Part shown: positions 13,370 to 24,838 of the stretch, one piece after another
Numbering within the stretch: the stretch's first letter is position 1
Layout of the letters: each line of letters starts with the position of its first letter
Notes under the pieces: model-generated
The model's input: the letters and a program-made list of their open reading frames with translations, nothing else
Told to the model about the DNA's origin: nothing
Database searches by the model: none
Assembly (NCBI GenBank): GCA_028291945.1
Contig: JAQGNH010000271.1
Span: 1 to 32,764 of the forward strand
From: Betaproteobacteria bacterium
Lineage (GTDB): Bacteria; Pseudomonadota; Gammaproteobacteria; Burkholderiales; SG8-41
Length of the DNA stretch: 32,764 nucleotides
Direction of reading: 5' to 3'
Translations under genes and position numbers: made by a program

Positions 13370-14326
13370 TCATCCCTCGGGTTTGATCCCGGCGGCCTTG
13401 ACGACTCGCGCGTACTTCTCGACCTCGGCCCGAACGAACTGCGCGAATTCAGCCGGCGTTTCGCCGCCGATCTTGTAACCGAGCTTTTCAATCGCCGGCC
13501 GCGAATCGTTCAACGATTTCACGACGACATCGTGTATCCGGTTCACGATCGCTTTCGGCGTTTGAGGCGGCATCCACATCCCGAACCACGCAGTGGATTC
13601 GAATCCGGGCACACCCGATTCATCGAGCGTCGGGATCTCGGGTGCGAGGGGCGTTCGCTTGAGCGATGCCACGCCGATGCCGTTCAGGCGGCCTGCCCGC
13701 ACCTGCGGCAGCATGTAAGACACGCCGCCGAAGACGAATTGCGTCTGTCCGGCGACCGTTTCCTGTACCGCGAGCGGGCTCGCTTTATACGCGACGTGCA
13801 CGATCTGAGTCTGCGTTGCCTGCTTGAACATCTCGCCCGCAATGTGTGCGATGCTGCCAACGCCGAACGACGCGTAGTTGAGCTTGTTCGGCTGCGATCT
13901 CGCAAGTGCGATGAGATCACGCACCGACTTGACGGGCAGCTGCGGATAGACGCCGAGGATCAGGTCCACCGACGCGAGCTGTGTCACAGGCGTCAGATCG
14001 CGCCTGATGTCGTAGCTGAGCTTGTAGAGGCTCGGATTGATTGCGATCGCGAGCGAATTGGCATGCAGCGTGTAACCATCCGGCGCGGCCTTTACCACCA
14101 TTTCATCGCCCATGACCCCGTTCGCGCCGGGCCGATTGTCCACAATGATCTGCTGACCGAGCAGCTCCGACATCCGTGGCGTGATGGTTCGTATCACGAT
14201 GTCGGTGGCGCCGCCGGCCGCCATCGGGATGATCACGCGCAACGGCCGATTCGGATAGGGTTGAGCGAGCGCCGGAGACGCGATGAGCACCATGAATACG
14301 ACGTACGTCCGACGCGACAATGTCAT
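13370..14326 (-). CDS. Bug/TctC-family tripartite tricarboxylate transporter receptor
   Basis: A 318-aa extracytoplasmic receptor. The signal peptide is MTLSRRTYVVFMVLIASPALA/Q. The family features are QPYPNRPLRVIIPMAAGGATDIVIR, then VDNRPGANGVMGDEMVVKAAPDGYTL (about 62-87), YDIRRDLTPVTQLASVDLILGV, LNYASFGVGSIAHIAGEMFKQ, IVHVAYKASPLAVQETVAGQTQFVFGG and the ending ARVVKAAGIKPEG. Such receptors bind small carboxylates in the periplasm and deliver them to TctA/TctB membrane proteins, which are absent here. The start at ATG 14326 was chosen because AGAGGA lies seven bases upstream and it gives the signal peptide; the longer open frame adds 51 residues of no family similarity. It is divergent from the MmgE/PrpD gene. 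Confidence 0.95.
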   Translation of the reverse strand: MTLSRRTYVVFMVLIASPALAQPYPNRPLRVIIPMAAGGATDIVIRTITPRMSELLGQQIIVDNRPGANGVMGDEMVVKAAPDGYTLHANSLAIAINPSLYKLSYDIRRDLTPVTQLASVDLILGVYPQLPVKSVRDLIALARSQPNKLNYASFGVGSIAHIAGEMFKQATQTQIVHVAYKASPLAVQETVAGQTQFVFGGVSYMLPQVRAGRLNGIGVASLKRTPLAPEIPTLDESGVPGFESTAWFGMWMPPQTPKAIVNRIHDVVVKSLNDSRPAIEKLGYKIGGETPAEFAQFVRAEVEKYARVVKAAGIKPEG

Positions 14327-14468
14327 GGAGTATCCTCTTCTCGTCACGACAGCATAGCGTAGCAGGCGGGGACCTGGCGTCGACGCGCTCGCGCCGATAC
14401 ATTGCTCGACCGAAGTGCACCATGTGCCTCGACGCGCTTCACTGGGATTTGAACTGGAGGTCAACGAC

Positions 14469-15830
14469 ATGGATAACACGACACGTACCCTCGCGAACTA
14501 TGTTGCCGGTCTGAAGCTCGCGGACTTGTCTCCCAGTGCCATACACGAAAGCAAGCGGCGTCTCATCGACGCCATTGCGTGCTGCATCGGCGGCTACTCG
14601 AACGAGCCGGCTTCCATTGCACGCCAGATAGCAGCCGACAACAGTGGTCGACCTCCCGCTCGTGTTCTGGGTTCCGGCGCGCTCACGTCGATCGAAATGG
14701 CGACCTTCGCGAATGCAGTGATGGTGCGCTACCTCGATTGCAACGACACTTATGTATCCAAAGGCTCGGGGCATCCGAGTGACATGATCGCCGCGTCACT
14801 CGCCGTGGCCGATGCGCTTCACGCAGACGGTAAACAGACGCTGCTCTCCATCGCGACGGCCTACGAGATCTTCACCGCACTCGCGGATGTCGTCGGGCTG
14901 CGGGATCTCGGATGGGATCAAGGCGTTTTCGTCGTCCTGGGCTGCGCCGCCGGCGCCGCGAAGCTTCTGAACCTGACGAGCGAGCAGACGGCCAATGCGC
15001 TGGCGATCGCGGTGACGGGCAATATCCCGACGCGACAGACACGAGCCGGTGAGCTGTCCATGTGGAAAGGATGTGCGACGGCAGTCGCAGCGCGCGCCGG
15101 TGTGTTTGCGGCGCTGTTGGCGCAGAAGGGCATGACGGGCCCGACTGCAGCGTTCGAAGGGCGGCACGGCGTGTGGGAGCAGGTGACCGGTCCTTTCGAG
15201 CTGGGCCGGCTCGGAGGCCACGGTGTCCCGTTCGGAATCGAGCGCACGAATCTCAAGTTTTTTCCTGCCGAATATCATTCGCAGGCACCGCTGTGGATCG
15301 CGCTCGAGTTGCGCAAGAAAGTTCGTGTCGAGCAGATCGAAGCTGTCGACGTGCAGACCTACTACACCGCATACAGCGAGATCGGCAGTGAACCCGAGAA
15401 ATGGCATCCGAAGACACGCGAGACTGCCGATCACAGCCTCCCCTATCTGCTCGCACTCGGGCTGACCGACGGGTACATCAATACCGAGAGCTTCAGCGAT
15501 GAACGCATCGCCGATCCAGGCCTGCGACAACTGATGCAGCGCATCCGTATCGCGGAGAACAAGGAGTTCACGCGCGAGTTTCCCTCGAAGCTCGTGACGA
15601 AGATCGAGGTGATCGCGCGCGATGGTCAGCGGATCGTCGAGACGGCGGCGTATCCGAAGGGGCACGCAAAAAATCCGATGAGCGATGCCGATGTAGAAAG
15701 CAAGTTCGCCGGTTTGTCGGAAGGCTTGGTTGCGCCGGTTGAGCGCGATGCGTTGCTGAGTGCCTTATGGGCTGTCGACCACGCTACGGAGATGGGCAAG
15801 GTACTCGAGCTGGTACGATTGGAACACTAA
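14469..15830 (+). CDS. MmgE/PrpD family protein
   Basis: A 453-aa protein of the usual family length. Recognisable blocks: RTLANYVAGLKLADLSPSAIHESKRRLIDAIACCIGG, ATFANAVMVRYLDCNDTY, GHPSDMIAASLAVADALH, LLSIATAYEIFTALADVVGLRDLGWDQG, LAIAVTGNIPTRQTRAGELSMWKGCATAVAARAGVFAALLAQKGMTGP, and VVGP-like KFFPAEYHSQAPLWIALEL. The order matches 2-methylcitrate dehydratase PrpD, cis-aconitate decarboxylase and the many MmgE/PrpD enzymes that dehydrate, decarboxylate or epimerise small carboxylates. The specific reaction cannot be assigned. ATG 14469 has GGAGG nine bases upstream and is preferred over an earlier in-frame codon at 14415. It is divergent from a Bug receptor gene, a common pairing that suggests the receptor supplies its substrate. 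Confidence 0.93.
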   Translation: MDNTTRTLANYVAGLKLADLSPSAIHESKRRLIDAIACCIGGYSNEPASIARQIAADNSGRPPARVLGSGALTSIEMATFANAVMVRYLDCNDTYVSKGSGHPSDMIAASLAVADALHADGKQTLLSIATAYEIFTALADVVGLRDLGWDQGVFVVLGCAAGAAKLLNLTSEQTANALAIAVTGNIPTRQTRAGELSMWKGCATAVAARAGVFAALLAQKGMTGPTAAFEGRHGVWEQVTGPFELGRLGGHGVPFGIERTNLKFFPAEYHSQAPLWIALELRKKVRVEQIEAVDVQTYYTAYSEIGSEPEKWHPKTRETADHSLPYLLALGLTDGYINTESFSDERIADPGLRQLMQRIRIAENKEFTREFPSKLVTKIEVIARDGQRIVETAAYPKGHAKNPMSDADVESKFAGLSEGLVAPVERDALLSALWAVDHATEMGKVLELVRLEH

Positions 15831-17561: not shown

Positions 17562-18359
17562 ATGGCGAATGCGGCTGGTGTGTCTCATCCACTCAAAGAG
17601 CTGTTCAAAGCAAAGAAGGTCGCGCTGGGCCTGCTGACGCGCCTTGCGCGCTCGGGCGACATCGCTCGTATCGCTAAGACGACAGGCCACGATTTCATTC
17701 TTATCGACTGCCAGCACTCGTTGTACAACGTCGAGACCATCGGCCACATGGCACAGGCCGCGCTCGGCATCGGCCTCTCGCCGCTCGTGCGCGTACGCAG
17801 CTGCGACGATCCCCAGACTCAAGTGCTCCTCGACAATGGCGTCACGGGCATCGTCTTTCCGGACGTGAATACTGCTGCGGAGGCCAAGCGTGCGGTGAAC
17901 AGATGCCGATTTCCACCGCTCGGAAAGCGATCGGTCGCCGGCACCTATCCGATATTCGACTACAAAGCGATGCCGATGCCGGACACGCTCAACGCGTTGA
18001 CCGAGAACACGCTCGTCGTGTGCATGATCGAAACGCAGGAAGGGCTCGACAACGTCGAAGCCATTGCGGCGGTCGAAGGCGTCGATGTCGTCCACGTGGG
18101 CTCGAACGACTTACTCACCGCGATGGGTAAACCCGGCTCTTTCGGCAGTGAGCAGCACATCGCTGCGCTCGATCGCGTGATCGCTGCGTCCAAGAAGCAT
18201 GGCAAGATCCCCGGCGTTGGAGGTGACCGCAACGTGGCGCGTCAAACCGACTTCATACGCAAAGGCGCGCAGTTCCTTACGACCAACAGTGATATCGCCT
18301 TCCTGACGGTCGAAGCAATGCGTGTCACGGGCGAGCTGCGCAAGGCGATCGCCGGATGA
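17562..18359 (+). CDS. HpcH/HpaI-type 2-oxoacid aldolase
   Basis: A 265-aa class II (metal-dependent) pyruvate-type aldolase. Visible active-site blocks: ILIDCQHSLYN (general-base His), LVRVRSCDDPQ (Arg that binds the pyruvate carboxylate), GVTGIVFPDVNTAAEAKRAV, VVCMIETQEGLDNVEAI (metal Glu) and VDVVHVGSNDLLTAMG (metal Asp). The C-terminus matches the swapped helix region of HpaI/GarL-like aldolases. These cleave 4-hydroxy-2-oxo acids to pyruvate (or a related oxoacid) and an aldehyde; the acid is not known here. ATG 17562 is preceded by CAGGAGAACGAG, a good ribosome site. It probably forms a catabolic unit with the Bug receptor 70 bp downstream. Confidence 0.92.
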   Translation: MANAAGVSHPLKELFKAKKVALGLLTRLARSGDIARIAKTTGHDFILIDCQHSLYNVETIGHMAQAALGIGLSPLVRVRSCDDPQTQVLLDNGVTGIVFPDVNTAAEAKRAVNRCRFPPLGKRSVAGTYPIFDYKAMPMPDTLNALTENTLVVCMIETQEGLDNVEAIAAVEGVDVVHVGSNDLLTAMGKPGSFGSEQHIAALDRVIAASKKHGKIPGVGGDRNVARQTDFIRKGAQFLTTNSDIAFLTVEAMRVTGELRKAIAG

Positions 18360-18411
18360 AAACCGATACGCCGCTCCTTCGGCGCGGCGCGGCTTAGGGC
18401 GCAGCACGGCT

Positions 18412-18434
18412 GTCATTTCGAGGGGCAGCGTGAC
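18412..18434. repeat. left arm of the GTCATTGCGAG repeat, overlapping a gene start
   Basis: These 23 bases (GTCATTTCGAGGGGCAGC..) differ at two positions from the copy at 19470-19492. Its GAGGGG forms the ribosome site and its GTG forms the presumed start codon of the Bug gene at 18430. No matching right arm is nearby. Confidence 0.55.
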
Positions 18435-19455
18435 CAGGGCCAGGACATTCGCCAGGGATCCACTGACGCGCACGCAACGCTCGGCACATGTTGCGGCGGC
18501 GCTCGCGGCCGTGACAACCGCGCTGTGCATGGCGGTTAATTTCTGCGCTGCGCAAGGCTATCCCAACAAGCCGATACGCATCATCAACACGACTGCAGCC
18601 GGCGGGCCTGCGGAGCTGGTTGCGCGTCTGGTCGGGCAAAGATTCACCGAAGCGTGGGGTCAGCAGGTCGTCATCGACACGCGTGCGGGGGCGGGCGGCA
18701 TTATCGGCGCGGAGATCGCCGCGCGGGCCGCGCCGGACGGCTATACGCTGCTGCTCGGCTCGGGTGCGACCATGGTGTTCGCGCCGTTGTTGCAGCCGAG
18801 CATACGATACGACCCGATCAAGGACTTCGCACAAGTGAGCATGGTCGTCTTGAGCCCATTCGTGCTGGTCGCACATCCTTCGGTCGGTGCAAAGAGCGTA
18901 AGCGAGCTCGTCACGCTCGCCAAAGCTAAACCCGGTTTCTTCAATTTCGGCACACTCGGCACCGGCAGCACGTCGCACCTCGGCTGTGAGCTCCTCAAGA
19001 TGCGCACCGGCATCGAAGTGCAGCAGGTCTCCTACAAGGGCGGGGTTCCCGCCGTGGCCGCTCTCGTCGCCGGCGAGGTTCACCTTCTGTTCAACAGCCT
19101 TGCCACGGCGCTGCCGCACGTCAAATCGGGCCGGCTCACGCTGCTCGCGACGGGCGGTCCCAAACGCTCGCCGATCATCCCGGATACGCCGACCTTGTCC
19201 GAGACGTACCCGGGCGTGGAAGTTGTGACGTGGTACAGCATTCTCGCGCCTGCGAAAACGCCGCGCGAGATCGTACTCAAGCTGAACGCCGAAATCGCAC
19301 GTGCCCTCGCGACCCGGGATATCGTCGATCGCCTCATTCAGCAGGGACACGAGCCTCGTCCGAGCACGCCCGAAGAGATGCGCGACTACACGCGCGCCGA
19401 GATTGCGAAGTGGGGAAAGATCATTAAGGCTGCTGGCATGAAAGCGGACAGTTGA
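18430..19455 (+). CDS. Bug/TctC-family receptor
   Basis: A 341-aa receptor. GTG 18430 is preceded by GAGGGG and gives a long, basic n-region (MTRARTFARDPLTRTQRSAH) before the hydrophobic core and FCAAQ cleavage site. The longer open frame from 18322 overlaps the aldolase. Family blocks: YPNKPIRIINTTAAGGPAEL, IDTRAGAGGIIGAEIAARAA, FAQVSMVVLSPFVLVAHP, FNFGTLGTGSTSHLGCELL, VSYKGGVPAVAALVAGEVHL and IIKAAGMKADS. The loop after strand 1 (TAAGGPAELVAR) has Pro-Ala where many have Ser-Thr-Asp, which may alter carboxylate binding. It follows the aldolase by 70 bp, so it is likely to import that enzyme's precursor substrate (inference). Confidence 0.93.
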   Translation: MTRARTFARDPLTRTQRSAHVAAALAAVTTALCMAVNFCAAQGYPNKPIRIINTTAAGGPAELVARLVGQRFTEAWGQQVVIDTRAGAGGIIGAEIAARAAPDGYTLLLGSGATMVFAPLLQPSIRYDPIKDFAQVSMVVLSPFVLVAHPSVGAKSVSELVTLAKAKPGFFNFGTLGTGSTSHLGCELLKMRTGIEVQQVSYKGGVPAVAALVAGEVHLLFNSLATALPHVKSGRLTLLATGGPKRSPIIPDTPTLSETYPGVEVVTWYSILAPAKTPREIVLKLNAEIARALATRDIVDRLIQQGHEPRPSTPEEMRDYTRAEIAKWGKIIKAAGMKADS

Positions 19456-19590: not shown

Positions 19591-20568
19591 CTACTCAGCG
19601 CGTATGCCGGCGTCCTTGATCACCTTCGCCATTCTGGTCATATCTGATCTGATCGTGGCTGCAAGCTGATCCGGTGAGCCGCCAATGGGCTCCATGCCGA
19701 CACTTAAAAACCTCTCCTTGAGATCGGGCGCGCTGAGCACACGAACGATTTCGCTGTTGAGCTTCTGTACGACAGGCTGCGGCGTCGCCGCCGGAGCAAA
19801 CACGCCGTATATGGCGATCGATTCGTAACCCGGTAAGCCCGCTGCAGCAATCGTCGGCAATCCTGGTGTCAGGGTAGACGGCTCTGCGCTCGTCACGGCG
19901 AGCGCCCTCACTTGTCCTGACCTCAGGAAAGCCATTACAGAGACTGAAGTCGGGAACATCAGCTGCACGCGGCCGCCGATCAGATCGTTGAGCCCCTGCG
20001 CGGCGCCTTTGTACGCGATACGCACGATCTTGACGGCCGCCATCGCCTTGAAGAGCTCTCCCGCGAGATGATTCGAAGCGCCGTTGCCGCTCGATGCGTA
20101 GTTGAGATCGCCGGGGTTCGCTTTGGCGAGCGCAATAAGCTCTGCGACTGATTTCACCGGCACCGCTGAATTCACGACGAGAACGTTCGGCGTGCTCGAG
20201 ACCCATACGACGGCTGAAAAATCCTTCGTCACATCGTAAGGCGTCTTCTGCATCAGCGTTCCGATCCAGAACGTATTGTTGTAGAGGAGCACCGTGTAAC
20301 CGTCCGGCGCCGCTTTTGAAACGATCTCTCCGGGTATGACGCCGCTCGGCCGATTGTCTACAACCACCCGCTGTCCCATCCTCATCGACAGCCCTTGAGC
20401 GATCAGGCGCGCCTGAACATCGTTGCCGCCGCCGGCTTCGGCGGTCACGAGACGTATCGGGCGCACCGGATAAGGCTGCGCAGCAGCCACGCGCGCGTCG
20501 AATATCAAGACGCCGCTTGCGATCAGCTGGAGAAGGACTACAACCAGCCGAATGGATGGGCCGTTCAT
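19591..20568 (-). CDS. Bug/TctC-family receptor, third gene of the UGSC operon
   Basis: A 325-aa receptor. Signal peptide about 1-31 (RLVVVLLQLIASGVLIFDARVAAA/Q). Family blocks: YPVRPIRLVTAEAGGGNDVQAR, VVDNRPSGVIPGEIVSKAAPDGYTV, FSAVVWVSSTPNVLVV, LNYASSGNGASNHLAGELFKA, VRIAYKGAAQGLNDLIGGRVQLMF and AKVIKDAGIRAE. It departs from the other receptors in the ligand loops: GGGNDVQAR instead of GGxTDxxAR, and DNRPSGVIPGE instead of DNRPGANG. Its ATG lies 21 bp after the stop of the UGSC selenoprotein gene on the same strand, so it is probably expressed with that gene and its partner, and may import their substrate. Confidence 0.93.
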   Translation of the reverse strand: MNGPSIRLVVVLLQLIASGVLIFDARVAAAQPYPVRPIRLVTAEAGGGNDVQARLIAQGLSMRMGQRVVVDNRPSGVIPGEIVSKAAPDGYTVLLYNNTFWIGTLMQKTPYDVTKDFSAVVWVSSTPNVLVVNSAVPVKSVAELIALAKANPGDLNYASSGNGASNHLAGELFKAMAAVKIVRIAYKGAAQGLNDLIGGRVQLMFPTSVSVMAFLRSGQVRALAVTSAEPSTLTPGLPTIAAAGLPGYESIAIYGVFAPAATPQPVVQKLNSEIVRVLSAPDLKERFLSVGMEPIGGSPDQLAATIRSDMTRMAKVIKDAGIRAE

Positions 20569-20589: not shown

Positions 20590-21144
20590 TTAAGCACGCG
20601 CGGCGGAGCTCAGCAGTCTCACGACTTCTGCTGCGACGTGGCGAGCCTTCGCTGCGCTTTCCTCATCGGATTCCCGTGCCGGCGCATCCTGCTTGTACAC
20701 GAGCGTTACGGGGTCTTTCGCGCCGAGCGCCTGGCACTGTGCTTTCGCGAGCGTCGCGAATGGCTCATGAACGAGAACGACTGCGGGTATGCCCTGCTTC
20801 CATGCCTGGAATGCGTCGCGCACGGCGGCGCCGGTGCAGGAGCCTCAGGCGCCGACACCGATAACCATGTAATCGACGGAGTCCGCGAGCGCACTGAATT
20901 TGGCGCTCTCGAGCGGCATCCACGTATTACTTTTGTATGCGCGCTGCACCGACGCGGGCGTCGCAAGCTCTTCGAGCGCGCGCTCCAGGCGCGGCCAGAA
21001 CTGCCGTGTCGCCTGGTATTGATTCCATATGAATCCCACGCGCCGGCCGACGGGCGTGTCCAGAGAGCGGCGCTGGGCCTGCTCCTGGATACGCGGATAA
21101 CCCACAGGGCTGATGAGCTCGATCACAAGACCTCCAAATATCAT
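20590..21144 (-). CDS. UGSC-family selenoprotein, in-frame TGA read as selenocysteine
   Basis: The frame from ATG 21144 runs 99 codons to TGA (20847-20845) and continues open for 84 more to TAA 20590, giving 184 residues with Sec at position 100. The codons at the TGA read VDYMVIGVGA-U-GSCTGAAVRDAF. Sec-Gly-Ser-Cys is the defining motif of the known UGSC (seleno)protein family, which also has Cys versions. The flanks fit the family too: a hydrophobic strand before it, then GIPAVVLVHEPFATLAKA after it. A U-x-x-C redox pair suggests a thiol/selenol reaction, but the family's function is not known. The start overlaps the stop of the upstream gene (ATGA). A SECIS-like hairpin follows the TGA. Reading it as two separate ORFs or a nonsense mutant is less likely, since the stop falls exactly at the Sec position. 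Sec use requires selA-D genes elsewhere in the genome. Confidence 0.88.
20820..20837 (-). promoter_or_regulatory. candidate bacterial SECIS hairpin
   Basis: Read on the minus strand, the hairpin begins eight bases after the TGA: GCAC pairs with GUGC, one C is bulged, then GGC pairs with GCC around a three-base loop GCC. The apical loop lies 16-18 bases after the UGA with a G in its first position. This agrees with the published bacterial SECIS model (loop about 16-37 bases downstream, conserved G near the loop start). The stem is short, so an extended fold may be the functional one. Confidence 0.55.
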
Positions 21145-22211
21145 TCAGGAAAACTTATTTTCTTGGTGAGCATGGGCTCACCCGCCGAGCTGCGGCTCGA
21201 GATGGCGATGCAATGACCCATCTGAGGCGCTTCGCCTCCGCCCACGACGATATGAATTTCGGCAGGCGTAATCGGGGACACGAAAATCTCGCGCTCGCTG
21301 CGCACGCGCGTGTCCGGATCGGGAAACGGCTCCGCATTGCCCTGATTCTTGTCGTTCTGCCAATCGTATGAATACTTGAATGCGCGCTCGGCAATCGCAC
21401 TCTTGAGCTTCTCCCGCGTGAAGCCGGCGCGATCGAACGTCTGTGCAAGCGCCGGGTTGATCACGTAGAGAAAGGCGCGCTTGCCGCCGCTTGTCGTGAT
21501 GCCGAGCCGTCCGATCCCGCGCGCGAGCAGCGTGATGCATTCGTTCAGTCCCACCGTGTTCACCGGAACGGCGAGTTGCGTGTGCTCGCCGGCTTTCATG
21601 ACGGTCACGGCGCTGTCGGACGCGGCGATGCCGAGGTCGACATGCATGGGGGCCCACGGCGTGATCTCCTGCTCTTCCCCGATGCAGTAGCTCCATGACG
21701 CCGGATGACCCATCGTTCCTTTGATGAGTTTGCCCGGGTGTGCGCGGCCTATGTTCCACAGGATCAATCGGATGGCTCTGCCGATCGCGCCGTTCGCGCG
21801 TCCTCCGTTCGGCCCGAAGATCCATTCGCGCGTATGGAAATCGAGCTCTCGTACGACGGGGCCCGTGACGACGGTGAGTATCGATGCCGAGCCGGTCGAT
21901 TGTGTCGTCGTAATCGGCATGGCCGGATCGACGAGACATTCGACTGCAGTGAGCACGACCGGCACGTGCTCAGGGAGGCAACCCGCCATGGCGCAGTTCG
22001 CTGCAACGTTGCGCACCGTCGCAACACCGTCTCCGGGAAAGATCGTGCCCAGCACTTCGTCGGGATCGCGTCGGGCATAGGCGAGTAACCCTTCGACTGC
22101 TTTGCGAGTCGGCGGGAACACAGGCAGGCCGTCCGTCCAGCCTTGCTCGTAGACGAATTCGGTGAAATGCTCGACCGATTCGATCTGGTGAATCTCAGCT
22201 TGTTGCGGCAT
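21141..22211 (-). CDS. conserved partner protein of the UGSC selenoprotein, function unknown
   Basis: A 356-aa protein with no signal peptide or membrane span. The N-terminal part has FVYEQGWTDGLPVFPPTRKAVEGLL, DPDEVLGTIFPGDGVATVRNVAANCAMAGCLPEHVPVVLTAVECL. The block 'DGLPVxPPT ... aTvxxxAxNxxMAGCxPExxPVVL' is one I recall from large uncharacterised proteins, some linked to UGSC proteins, but I cannot verify this here. The middle is Gly-rich (GPNGGRANGAIGRAIRLILWNIG), and the C-terminus has PAEIHIVVGGGEAPQMGHCIAISS. A Cys-x4-Cys pair (CAMAGC) could be redox active or bind metal. The gene shares an ATGA overlap with the selenoprotein gene, so translation is coupled. A TATAAT promoter lies upstream, and AGGTGG precedes the ATG. 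Confidence 0.85.
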   Translation of the reverse strand: MPQQAEIHQIESVEHFTEFVYEQGWTDGLPVFPPTRKAVEGLLAYARRDPDEVLGTIFPGDGVATVRNVAANCAMAGCLPEHVPVVLTAVECLVDPAMPITTTQSTGSASILTVVTGPVVRELDFHTREWIFGPNGGRANGAIGRAIRLILWNIGRAHPGKLIKGTMGHPASWSYCIGEEQEITPWAPMHVDLGIAASDSAVTVMKAGEHTQLAVPVNTVGLNECITLLARGIGRLGITTSGGKRAFLYVINPALAQTFDRAGFTREKLKSAIAERAFKYSYDWQNDKNQGNAEPFPDPDTRVRSEREIFVSPITPAEIHIVVGGGEAPQMGHCIAISSRSSAGEPMLTKKISFPE

Positions 22212-22285: not shown

Positions 22286-22330
22286 ATCGGAGTGGTTCGC
22301 GACGGCCGTGGTAGAGTCGACGAAGTAACT

Positions 22331-23326
22331 ATGACGGACGGAAAGCCGAGCATGGAAGGAAAAACGAGCAGGGCAGGTTCGATCGACGCGCATGCGCATT
22401 GGGCGCCTGAAGCGTACGTAAGGGAAGTGGAGAAACTCGGCCACAAAGCTGCCGGCGGTCCGCTGAGCCCGCTCATGTTCGATCTGGAAAAGCGCATGGC
22501 GTGGATGGATGAGCGCAACATCAGGATGCACGTACTGACGCTCTCGGGCGCGATGCCATGGCAGTGGGCCTCGCAGGACTCGGCGAATACTCTTGCGCGG
22601 ATCGTCAACGATGCGGCGATAGAGGCACACAAGTCTTTTCCCGATCGCTTCATCGCAGGCGTCGCGATGCCGATGCGCGATCCCTCAGCGGCCGTGAAGG
22701 AGCTTGACCGAGTGGCTGGCAAGCCCGGCATACGCGCGGTCCACCTGCCCACCTCAGTCGAGGGCCACGACTACATTTTTGAACGCGAGTATCTGCCGCT
22801 GCTGGCTCACTGCGAAGAGCTCGGTTATCCGCTCCTGTTTCATCCGCTGGACGGCGTCGAGAACCACTACGGCGGCCCCGAGCGACTCGCAGGCGCGTCG
22901 TTCATGTACAACACGCTCGGCTTTCCGTTCGAGACCGCCACGCTCGTGGTCAAGTTCATCTCTAGTGGTCTGCTCGACAAGTTTCCAAAACTCCAAATCG
23001 TGCTGCCGCATTCCGGCGGCTGCTTCCCCTACATTGCGGGACGCATCGAGCACAGCATCAAGAAAGGCGTGTCGGACATCAAGCTGCAGCGCCCATTCAG
23101 GGAATACATCCGGCGCTTCCATTACGACACGCTCGCGTACTACCCGGAAACGCTGCGCTTCATGATCGATCTCGTCGGATCGGACCGCGTCGTCATCGGC
23201 ACCGACAATTACGCGAAGATGGACGTCGAGCAGCCGAACGCACTCGTGGAGGAGTTGAAGCTTCCCGCCGCAGACCTCGAACGGATCCTGCGCGGTAATG
23301 CGGCGAAGCTTTTGCGGCTATCGTGA
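22331..23326 (+). CDS. ACMSD-like amidohydrolase/decarboxylase
   Basis: A 331-aa amidohydrolase-family protein of the 2-amino-3-carboxymuconate-6-semialdehyde decarboxylase group. It has the metal motif GSIDAHAHWAP near the N-terminus, then MAWMDERNIRMHVLTLS, SFPDRFIAGVAMPMRDPSAAVKELDR, LLAHCEELGYPLLFHPLDG (metal His), LQIVLPHSGGCFPYIAGRIEH (His), YDTLAYYPETLRFMIDLVGSDRVVIGTDNY (Asp) and ILRGNAAKLL. Members decarboxylate or hydrate small acids such as gamma-resorcylate or ACMS; the specific substrate is unknown. ATG 22331 is chosen; ATG 22352 (with GGAAAG upstream) is a close alternative, and an in-frame GTG at 22292 is less likely. It is divergent from the UGSC operon with about 120 bp between, so it may belong to the same pathway. 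Confidence 0.9.
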   Translation: MTDGKPSMEGKTSRAGSIDAHAHWAPEAYVREVEKLGHKAAGGPLSPLMFDLEKRMAWMDERNIRMHVLTLSGAMPWQWASQDSANTLARIVNDAAIEAHKSFPDRFIAGVAMPMRDPSAAVKELDRVAGKPGIRAVHLPTSVEGHDYIFEREYLPLLAHCEELGYPLLFHPLDGVENHYGGPERLAGASFMYNTLGFPFETATLVVKFISSGLLDKFPKLQIVLPHSGGCFPYIAGRIEHSIKKGVSDIKLQRPFREYIRRFHYDTLAYYPETLRFMIDLVGSDRVVIGTDNYAKMDVEQPNALVEELKLPAADLERILRGNAAKLLRLS

Positions 23327-23558: not shown

Positions 23559-24521
23559 TTACTGCACCTTGATGTTGCCGACCTTCACCACCCGATTCCA
23601 CTTGTCGATTTCGCGCGCGATCACGCGTGAGAACTCTTCGGGCGACGAGTGCGCAGGCTCTCTCCCGTCCGCGCGGAGCCGCTCCAGCACATCCGGCTGC
23701 TTGAGGATGCGCCCGAGGGAAACGTTGAGGCGCGAGATGATGTCCTTCGGTGTTCGTGCCGGCGCCCACATGCCGTTCCAAGACGTGTGCTCGTAACCGG
23801 GCAGCGTTTCGGCGATCGCAGGCAAATCGGGCAGTTCCGCGAAGCGTTGTTCGGTGGTGACGGCAAGCCCGCGCAACCGGCCGCCTTTCAAGTGCGGTAT
23901 CAACGCCGGCACCGAACAGAATATGAGCTGGATCTGGCCGCCGAGGAGGTCGGCGATGGCGGGCGCGTCGCCCTTGTAGGGAACGTGCACCATGCTCGTC
24001 TTCGTCATCTGCAGAAAAAGCTCGGTCGCGAGATGAGTGGCCCCGCCGATGCCCGAAGAGCCGTAGGTGAGCGCGCGCGGTTTCGAGCGTGCAAGCTCGA
24101 TGAAATCCTTCACGTTACCGGCAGTGATCGAAGAGTTCACCGCGAGCGCGAACGGCCCCTTGTGCAACATGCCGATCGACGCGATGTCCTTGACTGGATC
24201 GTAAGGCAGCTTGTAGAGCGCCGCGTTGGTGGCGTAGCTCGTTGCAACGATGATGAGCGTGTAGCCGTCCGGGTTCGCGCGCACGACGATGTCGGTGCCG
24301 ATCGATCCGCCGGCGCCGGAGCGGTTGTCGACGATGAACTGCTGGCCGAATTCCTGGGAGAGCCGCGCGGTGAGCACGCGCGCGATGATGTCGGTGCTCC
24401 CGCCGGGGGCAAAGGGCACCACGACGCGCACGGGCTTGTCAGGCCATTTTCCGGTCTGCCCATGCACCGCGGGCAAGGTCGCGCCAAGCGCGAGCATCAA
24501 CAATGCGGGTATTGTTTTCAT
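23559..24521 (-). CDS. Bug/TctC-family receptor
   Basis: A 320-aa receptor. Signal peptide MKTIPALLMLALGATLPAVHG/Q from ATG 24521; the longer open frame to 24665 adds 48 residues with no signal character. Family blocks: WPDKPVRVVVPFAPGGSTDIIAR, VDNRSGAGGSIGTDIVVRAN, IASIGMLHKGPFALAV, LTYGSSGIGGATHLATELF, MVHVPYKGDAPAIADLLGGQIQLIF and VVKVGNIKVQ. It is the most canonical of the five receptors in the binding loop (GGSTDIIAR). A GGGGGAG lies twelve bases before the ATG, a little far for a Shine-Dalgarno. It is divergent from the D-2-hydroxyacid dehydrogenase gene and convergent with the ACMSD-like gene. Confidence 0.95.
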   Translation of the reverse strand: MKTIPALLMLALGATLPAVHGQTGKWPDKPVRVVVPFAPGGSTDIIARVLTARLSQEFGQQFIVDNRSGAGGSIGTDIVVRANPDGYTLIIVATSYATNAALYKLPYDPVKDIASIGMLHKGPFALAVNSSITAGNVKDFIELARSKPRALTYGSSGIGGATHLATELFLQMTKTSMVHVPYKGDAPAIADLLGGQIQLIFCSVPALIPHLKGGRLRGLAVTTEQRFAELPDLPAIAETLPGYEHTSWNGMWAPARTPKDIISRLNVSLGRILKQPDVLERLRADGREPAHSSPEEFSRVIAREIDKWNRVVKVGNIKVQ

Positions 24522-24838
24522 CGGTGCAATTCGCTCCCCCTCGTTAGAAGTGAAACCGCAGCACAGCCCTGCCGATTTATCGTGCGTCATTTGCATATCA
24601 GCGTCAAGGTGCGCCGCTCGAATCGAGAGGTGTGGTGTGCAGCCCGTCTTGGCAGGTATTCTCATGGCTCATGGTTCATGAAAGGAAGGGGTGATCACCT
24701 ATGTCGGCGGCATCGCATGCGTTTGGCTACCTGACTCAGTCTGAAGTCCGCTTTCTGCGCGAGTGGTCGCGATGATTCCGACGTCTGCCGCGACGTTGCT
24801 TACCGGAGTGTCGAACACCCGACTGGAGCCGCGCTGAC
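24522..24838. other. 317-bp divergent intergenic region
   Basis: This lies between the Bug gene (minus) and the dehydrogenase gene (plus). I see a TTGACG on the minus strand (about 24610), but no -10 at proper spacing. There is no convincing ORF, RNA gene or repeat. The only other pattern is CTCATGGCTCATGGTTCATG near 24661-24680, three near-copies of a 7-8-mer. Confidence 0.4.

Follow-up and report, generated by a model that had tools for sequence, protein, structure and literature searches.

The locus raises the question of whether a minus-strand reading frame interrupted by a single TGA is a disrupted gene or encodes one selenocysteine (Sec)-containing protein and, in the latter case, what this protein might do. 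In the window, that is the whole stretch of 32,764 nt analysed here, translation with table 11 returns two adjacent open reading frames, 20845–21144 (99 aa) and 20590–20823 (77 aa). As proposed in a preliminary description of this DNA, both belong to one frame of 184 codons on the minus strand (21144–20590), whose sole interruption is the TGA at 20847–20845; the coordinates were found as claimed, and the Gly-Ser-Cys codons following the TGA, which together with Sec spell U-G-S-C, can be read directly from the sequence. The locus comprises the following features:

19591–20568, minus strand: TctC-type solute-binding protein (PF03401, 222.5 bits), starting 21 nt after the UGSC stop codon
20590–21126, minus strand: UGSC selenoprotein gene (PF24696) of 178 codons, with GTG start, TAA stop and a single in-frame TGA
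20813–20831, minus strand: candidate bacterial SECIS hairpin, nt 17–35 with the T of the TGA as nt 1, with an apical GUG loop
20845–20847, minus strand: TGA read as Sec, codon 94 from the GTG and first residue of the U-G-S-C motif
21131–21135, minus strand: ribosome-binding site GGAGG, 5' of the GTG start, recognized by sequence
21141–22211, minus strand: putative partner subunit of 356 aa, from an unnamed family of ~360-aa proteins, directly upstream of UGSC
22292–23326, plus strand: divergent amidohydrolase (Amidohydro_2, Pfam), given as context

Most likely, translation starts at the GTG at 21126–21124 behind the GGAGG sequence. Of the 13 distinct orthologues, 12 have an ATG or GTG at the same codon, L215 being the exception, and GGAG or similar purine-rich sites occur at the equivalent place in most of them. 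In addition, orthologue L209 carries a stop codon upstream of this position. Conservation of the start codon and the upstream stop in L209 thus indicate a protein of 178 codons and make the ATG at 21144 an unlikely start. That is, the single TGA-crossed frame of the preliminary description stands, whereas its length was over-called by six codons.

Predicted decoding of the TGA as selenocysteine

A stop-split pseudogene, a sequencing error or a true stop releasing a 93-aa product would agree with the split of the frame under table 11, yet such an explanation is hardly credible given the conservation on both sides of the TGA. All 16 ortholog loci examined, at 59–86% identity, retain the TGA, which is far beyond chance expectation; they correspond to 13 distinct sequences, since L204, L210 and L213 represent the genomes of L081, L082 and L083. 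The identical position of the TGA in these 13 orthologues also disposes of the sequencing error that had been considered at the outset. Moreover, selection persists 3' of the TGA: for three orthologues, dN/dS-like ratios of 0.046, 0.101 and 0.093 were obtained after the TGA, as compared to 0.141, 0.091 and 0.121 before it, all of them rough values at a synonymous divergence of 0.54–0.71. A fourth, 40%-identical homologue yielded 0.53 after and 0.52 before the TGA. Selection downstream of the TGA and its presence in all orthologues examined lead us to reject a pseudogene, a frameshift and a sequencing error.

The Sec codon was also inspected in 115 UGSC domains, 27 of them from the source genome and 88 from 80 loci selected by their partner gene (see below). 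It is TGA in 113 cases, TGC in one and GGC in one. The 88 domains derive from 96 matches, eight of which were left out as weak or shorter than 100 positions; likewise omitted were C33 and C168, end-of-contig fragments of one gene of the source genome, and a few domains are counted twice as L102 and L155 overlap (111 distinct sequences among the 113 SECIS stretches). Residues other than Cys or Sec at this site (position 100 in the 184-codon frame), which the preliminary description had singled out as a point to check, are therefore limited to rare Gly or Ser exceptions. The resolving Cys of U-x-x-C is 93% conserved over UGSC domains.

The source genome (7.1 Mb in 587 contigs, 98% complete) contains the sel genes that were expected to accompany such a gene, which further argues against a pseudogene: selA (593.8 bits), selB (459.5 bits), selD (426.3 bits) and tRNA-Sec (75.8 bits) all score above cut-off. 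The selA and selB genes adjoin each other, and the tRNA carries the anticodon TCA (tRNA-Sec(UCA)). SelD of this genome (L018; G000 C136:23390–24316) has an in-frame TGA and is itself a selenoprotein. The partner gene terminates with TGA (21143–21141), and hence this codon also serves as a stop within the UGSC operon.

Folding energies of the 113 TGA domains fall below those of codon shuffles only around the TGA: the difference amounts to -4.24 +/- 0.40 kcal/mol at offset 0 and to -2.0 and -2.3 at offsets -12 and +12, respectively, and ranges from -0.73 to +0.80 kcal/mol elsewhere. The common form of the UGSC SECIS is an 8-bp stem (nt 15–22 with 26–33) topped by a GUN loop. With this stem, 79.6% of cells are paired, as compared to 23–49% in slid versions; the 707 pairs counted exceed those of all 500 shuffles, the highest of which reached 634. 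Of the 111 distinct sequences, 46 form all eight pairs; at stem position 21/27, G-C occurs 56 times and C-G 46 times. For the window copy this canonical register was rejected, as it yields only two of the eight pairs. With the register moved on by two bases, 14 of 14 sequences fit, namely the window copy and its 13 orthologues. All 14 distinct members of this subfamily preserve the corresponding candidate hairpin at nt 17–35 with its GUG or GUC loop, the changes among them being two that keep a wobble pair and one from C-C to G-C, found in two sequences. In the window copy, its six pairs are accompanied by a single C-A mismatch, and C faces C at the base of the loop; a simple hairpin search preferred nt 15–25 in this case.

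Codons +2 to +10 after the TGA are synonymously constrained in the window subfamily. In a profile of 17 rows, among which are the window copy and three duplicates, five-codon windows within +2 to +12 contain 73–92% identical codons at shared residues, as compared to 44–66% elsewhere with the exception of +35 to +39 (82%). Within a 45-nt context, the nt 17–35 hairpin has a pair probability of at least 0.5 in eight of the 14 sequences; in the window copy, the value is about 0 and the hairpin is not the minimum-energy fold, and an Rfam search of the window gave no match. The SECIS evidence is good for the window subfamily and weaker for the window copy alone. Taken together, Sec coding, the presence of the sel machinery and RNA constraint are supported computationally.

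The UGSC family, its paralogues and its partner

Read with Sec at the TGA, the protein matches Pfam family PF24696 with 107.9 bits (gathering cut-off 25), and its gene was also recovered by a genome-wide UGSC search. Against the NCBIfam UGSC equivalog NF041046 it reaches 76.5 bits, below the cut-off of 125, which marks the window copy as a divergent member of the family. The His-Pro motif found in about 70% of UGSC domains is absent from this copy. The family assignment made at first sight thus holds for PF24696, but not at the equivalog threshold, and the gene is confirmed as a correctly spotted member of the known UGSC family. Sequence family, Sec motif and SECIS are common to the window copy and the 'UGSC-containing protein' of metagenomic selenoproteomes. 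Lists of common selenoproteins have included UGSC from 2008 or earlier. The accessible text of PMC2398784 reports 255 Sec versus 21 Cys homologues, a predominance of Sec as seen here. A review of May 2026 (PMC13188914), in its available part, places UGSC in a group with functions termed largely uncharacterized and remarks that selenoprotein genes are often truncated or overlooked by annotation tools. Beyond membership in a known family, the wider result lies in a near-constant partner, homology to a reductase family and the numbers of paralogues.

The source genome gave 29 UGSC matches. Two of them appear to be the halves of a single gene cut at contig borders, so that the number of genes is 28, of which 27 have TGA and one has Cys. 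This sole Cys form (L033:862–1368; G000 contig C523) shares a 12-kb contig with two Sec forms. All 73 other searched genomes of the same taxonomic family have at least one match, with counts from 1 to at least 21. The Betaproteobacteria MAGs of L081, L082 and L083, assigned to this family because the coordinates of their matches are identical to those of G035, G034 and G030, contain 32, 19 and 40 matches, respectively. At least 150 UGSC matches among 208 candidates were obtained in the Chloroflexi MAG NC_groundwater_644_Ag_B-0.1um_60_123 (G353, reached via L086). Of the 150 genes examined in this MAG, 146 have TGA at the Sec column and four encode Gly or Ser; identity to the nearest paralogue has a median of 0.70 and a maximum of 0.91, and the set displays a folding dip at the TGA (-2.75). 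As 18 of these genes reside on one 359-kb contig and one selB scores above cut-off, strain duplicates or a mixed bin do not readily explain the number, with the usual caveats of a MAG.

The four G353 loci with Ser or Gly at the Sec site are L312, L332, L350 and L364, and a further non-Cys form is L158:6059–6496; such paralogues are perhaps non-catalytic subunits. A second TGA is present in three G353 matches. As to the decoding machinery, selB was above cut-off in nine of 12 UGSC-bearing genomes, while G049 yielded fragments only and G343 and G345 none over cut-off, which may reflect gaps in the MAGs.

Relatives of the partner gene occur in 23 of 24 UGSC stretches of the source genome, mostly adjoining UGSC; in stretch L040 the distance is 3.6 kb. 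In 12 copies both proteins are fused, with the partner behind UGSC. A partner search in named genomes gave 567 confirmed relatives, of which the best 80 were kept. These derive from Betaproteobacteria, Chloroflexi including SAR202, Rokubacteria, Alphaproteobacteria and others, and 73 of them have UGSC within the same stretch (up to 8 kb on each side). The remaining seven comprise four from Poribacteria, two near a contig end and one in the middle of a Chloroflexi contig. The stand-alone Poribacteria partners (L100:7953–8798, L111:3337–4128, L131:8001–8837 and L147:7962–8783; 67–83% alike) possibly represent an ancestral or Sec-independent form; the L100 genome has one UGSC elsewhere, outside the partner stretch. 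A MAG titled Bordetella parapertussis, a title that looks mislabelled, carries UGSC and partner (L128 and L143, fused in the latter).

Searches with the partner gave no match below E 0.05 in Pfam or at E up to 1 in the PDB (23 sequences each), and none below 0.003 in NCBIfam (77 sequences). Its invariant residues include D-G-x-P, A-G, G-P, G-R, an Asn, a Glu and a Trp; a MAGC block is invariant as well, in part through selection, as it also served as the search pattern. A UGSC/Unknown_1 fusion, in which UGSC is joined to a second conserved domain, appears in the available text of PMC2398784 and resembles the present arrangement by description only. The literature searched, with few subscription papers among it, contained no account of the partner, of a link to GrdB or of such numbers of UGSC paralogues.

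Relation to GrdB and PrdB

When 77 UGSC domains were compared with family models at E up to 1, five Grd/Prd families were the commonest matches after UGSC itself: TIGR01917 (glycine reductase selenoprotein B; 41 domains, best 5.2e-7), the GrdF model (26), TIGR01918 (23, best 1.2e-5), the GrdH model (23) and the PrdB model TIGR04483 (16, best 0.0014). The next family matched three members. The window copy alone matched the UGSC model only and none of the Grd/Prd models, and had no match to PF07355 at E up to 10. The latter model (347 positions) seems to stop just before Sec, which is located at about residue 349–363 of ~435 in GrdB, and may be blind to the shared Sec part.

Searches for GrdB returned two weak matches in 200 genomes of the window's own phylum and 67 in 297 genomes of the phylum of L120's genome, from which 30 loci were taken. 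Profiles were made of 11 full GrdB and 17 short PrdB-like proteins, L170 and L175 being excluded as too short. The genes of the short PrdB-like proteins (L176–L192, phylum of L120's genome) contain TGA in contexts such as U-G-I-C-N-Q-S and U-P-V-C-H-Q-S. Using hhalign, UGSC aligned with the 11 GrdB sequences at 96.35% (E 1.5e-9, 83 columns, 23% identity) and with the 17 PrdB-like sequences at 92.7% (E 4.3e-7); the 7% obtained against GrdE was disregarded. With the motif masked in both profiles, the rest of the same UGSC-GrdB region was retained at 61–62% (E about 7e-5). The masked score of 38.6–38.9 lies above the maximum of 100 column-shuffled controls (21.3) and above the reversed profile (21.5), indicating that the link between UGSC and GrdB exceeds the short motif alone. 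Only the C-terminal half of UGSC (82–172) takes part in the alignment. For the family as a whole, remote homology between the Sec-containing half of UGSC and the GrdB/PrdB Sec domain is shown by computation, at the level of sequence profiles.

GrdB, GrdF and GrdH (TIGR01917, TIGR01918) resemble UGSC in the succession of a strand, U-G-x-C, a helix, a strand, a Pro-His-Pro loop and a last helix. In contrast to GrdB, UGSC with its 178 aa is devoid of the N-terminal part, and its partner is not detectably GrdE. D-proline reductase PrdB and the short PrdB-like selenoproteins are small Sec subunits, as is UGSC. PrdA, the partner of PrdB, is a pyruvoyl proprotein, whereas no similarity to GrdE, which is related to PrdA, was detectable in the partner of UGSC. 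Indeed, the partner scored 0.56% against the GrdB profile and 0.25% against GrdE, with 0.25–0.56% as the full range including PrdB-like proteins; the value of the adjacent partner versus 12 GrdE-like proteins, named by their position next to GrdB, was 0.25% and within the range of 40 shuffled controls. Since the partner is unlike GrdB and GrdE, the carbonyl chemistry of the Grd/Prd systems need not carry over, and substrate activation would differ.

The AF2 model of UGSC (pLDDT 87.6) has a flavodoxin/receiver-like sheet with Sec after strand 3. In a fold search it retrieved receiver/flavodoxin-like chains (best Z 10.2), with no thioredoxin among the 50 matches listed. The model differs from the thioredoxin-like fold suggested in the accessible part of PMC2398784. 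A natural UGSC-partner fusion (L125) was modelled with pLDDT 89.5 and pTM 0.89. The best Foldseek match of this model had E 3.7e-4 and TM 0.21, and the best VIA match (Z 10.1) fell on the UGSC part; the matches of both searches barely cover the partner, and no specific relative emerged from either.

Proposed function and alternatives

Four TctC-type proteins are encoded in about 11 kb of the window (13370–14479, 18322–19455, 19591–20568 and 23559–24665), and neither TctA nor TctB was among the window proteins scanned. In a tally of 150 neighbour proteins of UGSC and partner (from 232 selected ORFs, each trimmed to 330 aa; L081 to L133 only), TctC accounts for 20 and SBP_bac_5 for six; no enrichment is claimed. 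TctC is common in such genomes. Other neighbours are flavin/NAD oxidoreductases, MmgE/PrpD, hydratases including enoyl-CoA hydratase, asparaginase and amidohydrolases.

We propose, with a probability of roughly 0.6, a catabolic reductase of two subunits, in which UGSC provides the Sec and the partner is the large subunit. The subunit complex, the reductive chemistry and the substrate class are what we infer, the chemistry by analogy with GrdB/PrdB. The locus would encode the small Sec subunit and, upstream, the large subunit of this two-component enzyme, and SelB and tRNA-Sec would decode the TGA at a SECIS within the first 35 nt from the TGA. By analogy with GrdB/PrdB, the substrate bound by the partner would be a small organic compound; a carboxylate supplied via the neighbouring TctC-type protein is the probable candidate. 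It would be attacked by the selenolate of the Sec, which follows strand 3, with reductive cleavage of a C-N, C-O or C-X bond. Resolution of the selenium adduct would then fall to the Cys of U-x-x-C, itself recycled by cellular thiols. The paralogues may be copies tuned to different substrates.

The U-x-x-C motif would also suit the guess of 2008, a thioredoxin- or peroxiredoxin-like protein engaged in thiol-disulfide redox reactions with proteins or peroxides. We regard this as quite unlikely, because profile homology points to GrdB/PrdB and the AF2 model, which would not decide the matter alone, matches flavodoxin-/receiver-like chains; dozens of partnered paralogues near catabolic genes would, in addition, be ill-suited to a housekeeping thiol protein. 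It is unlikely, too, that Sec acts without redox turnover, as a nucleophile or carrier in a catabolic step (isomerase, lyase, hydrolase or GrdA-like substrate carrier). Neighbours such as MmgE/PrpD, enoyl-CoA hydratase, asparaginase and amidohydrolase as well as the four paralogues of one genome with Ser or Gly at the Sec site would be in line with such an enzyme, whereas the conservation of the resolving Cys suggests redox turnover and the nearest known relatives found are reductases. Finally, the pair might act on organometals, selenium compounds or electrophiles instead of nutrients; another multi-selenoprotein system, SAO, is tied to organometal chemistry in the available text of PMC13188914. 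Such a role in detoxification appears improbable, since the TctC and SBP_bac_5 proteins among the 150 neighbours fit uptake and no mer- or ars-type family is present among the 25 of 196 neighbour families listed.

The two-subunit catabolic reductase may be part of a broader picture, which we put forward as tentative and a little short of even odds: UGSC and partner would be a general Se-based kind of catabolic enzyme, a third branch beside GrdB and PrdB without pyruvoyl subunit, duplicated into a substrate-specific toolbox. If true, at least one Chloroflexi genome, G353, would hold the largest selenoproteome known, with 146 predicted Sec genes of the UGSC family alone, and selenium would serve in bulk as a catalytic element when groundwater and ocean bacteria break down dissolved organic acids. 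The function of UGSC can now be approached through the partner protein, a homologous family with known chemistry and the neighbouring binding proteins as leads. According to the available part of PMC13188914, the published maximum of selenoprotein genes per genome, all families included, has been 57, the newest value being 63. As compared to this number, 27 Sec genes of one family in the source genome and at least 146 elsewhere would alter the view of bacterial reliance on selenium.
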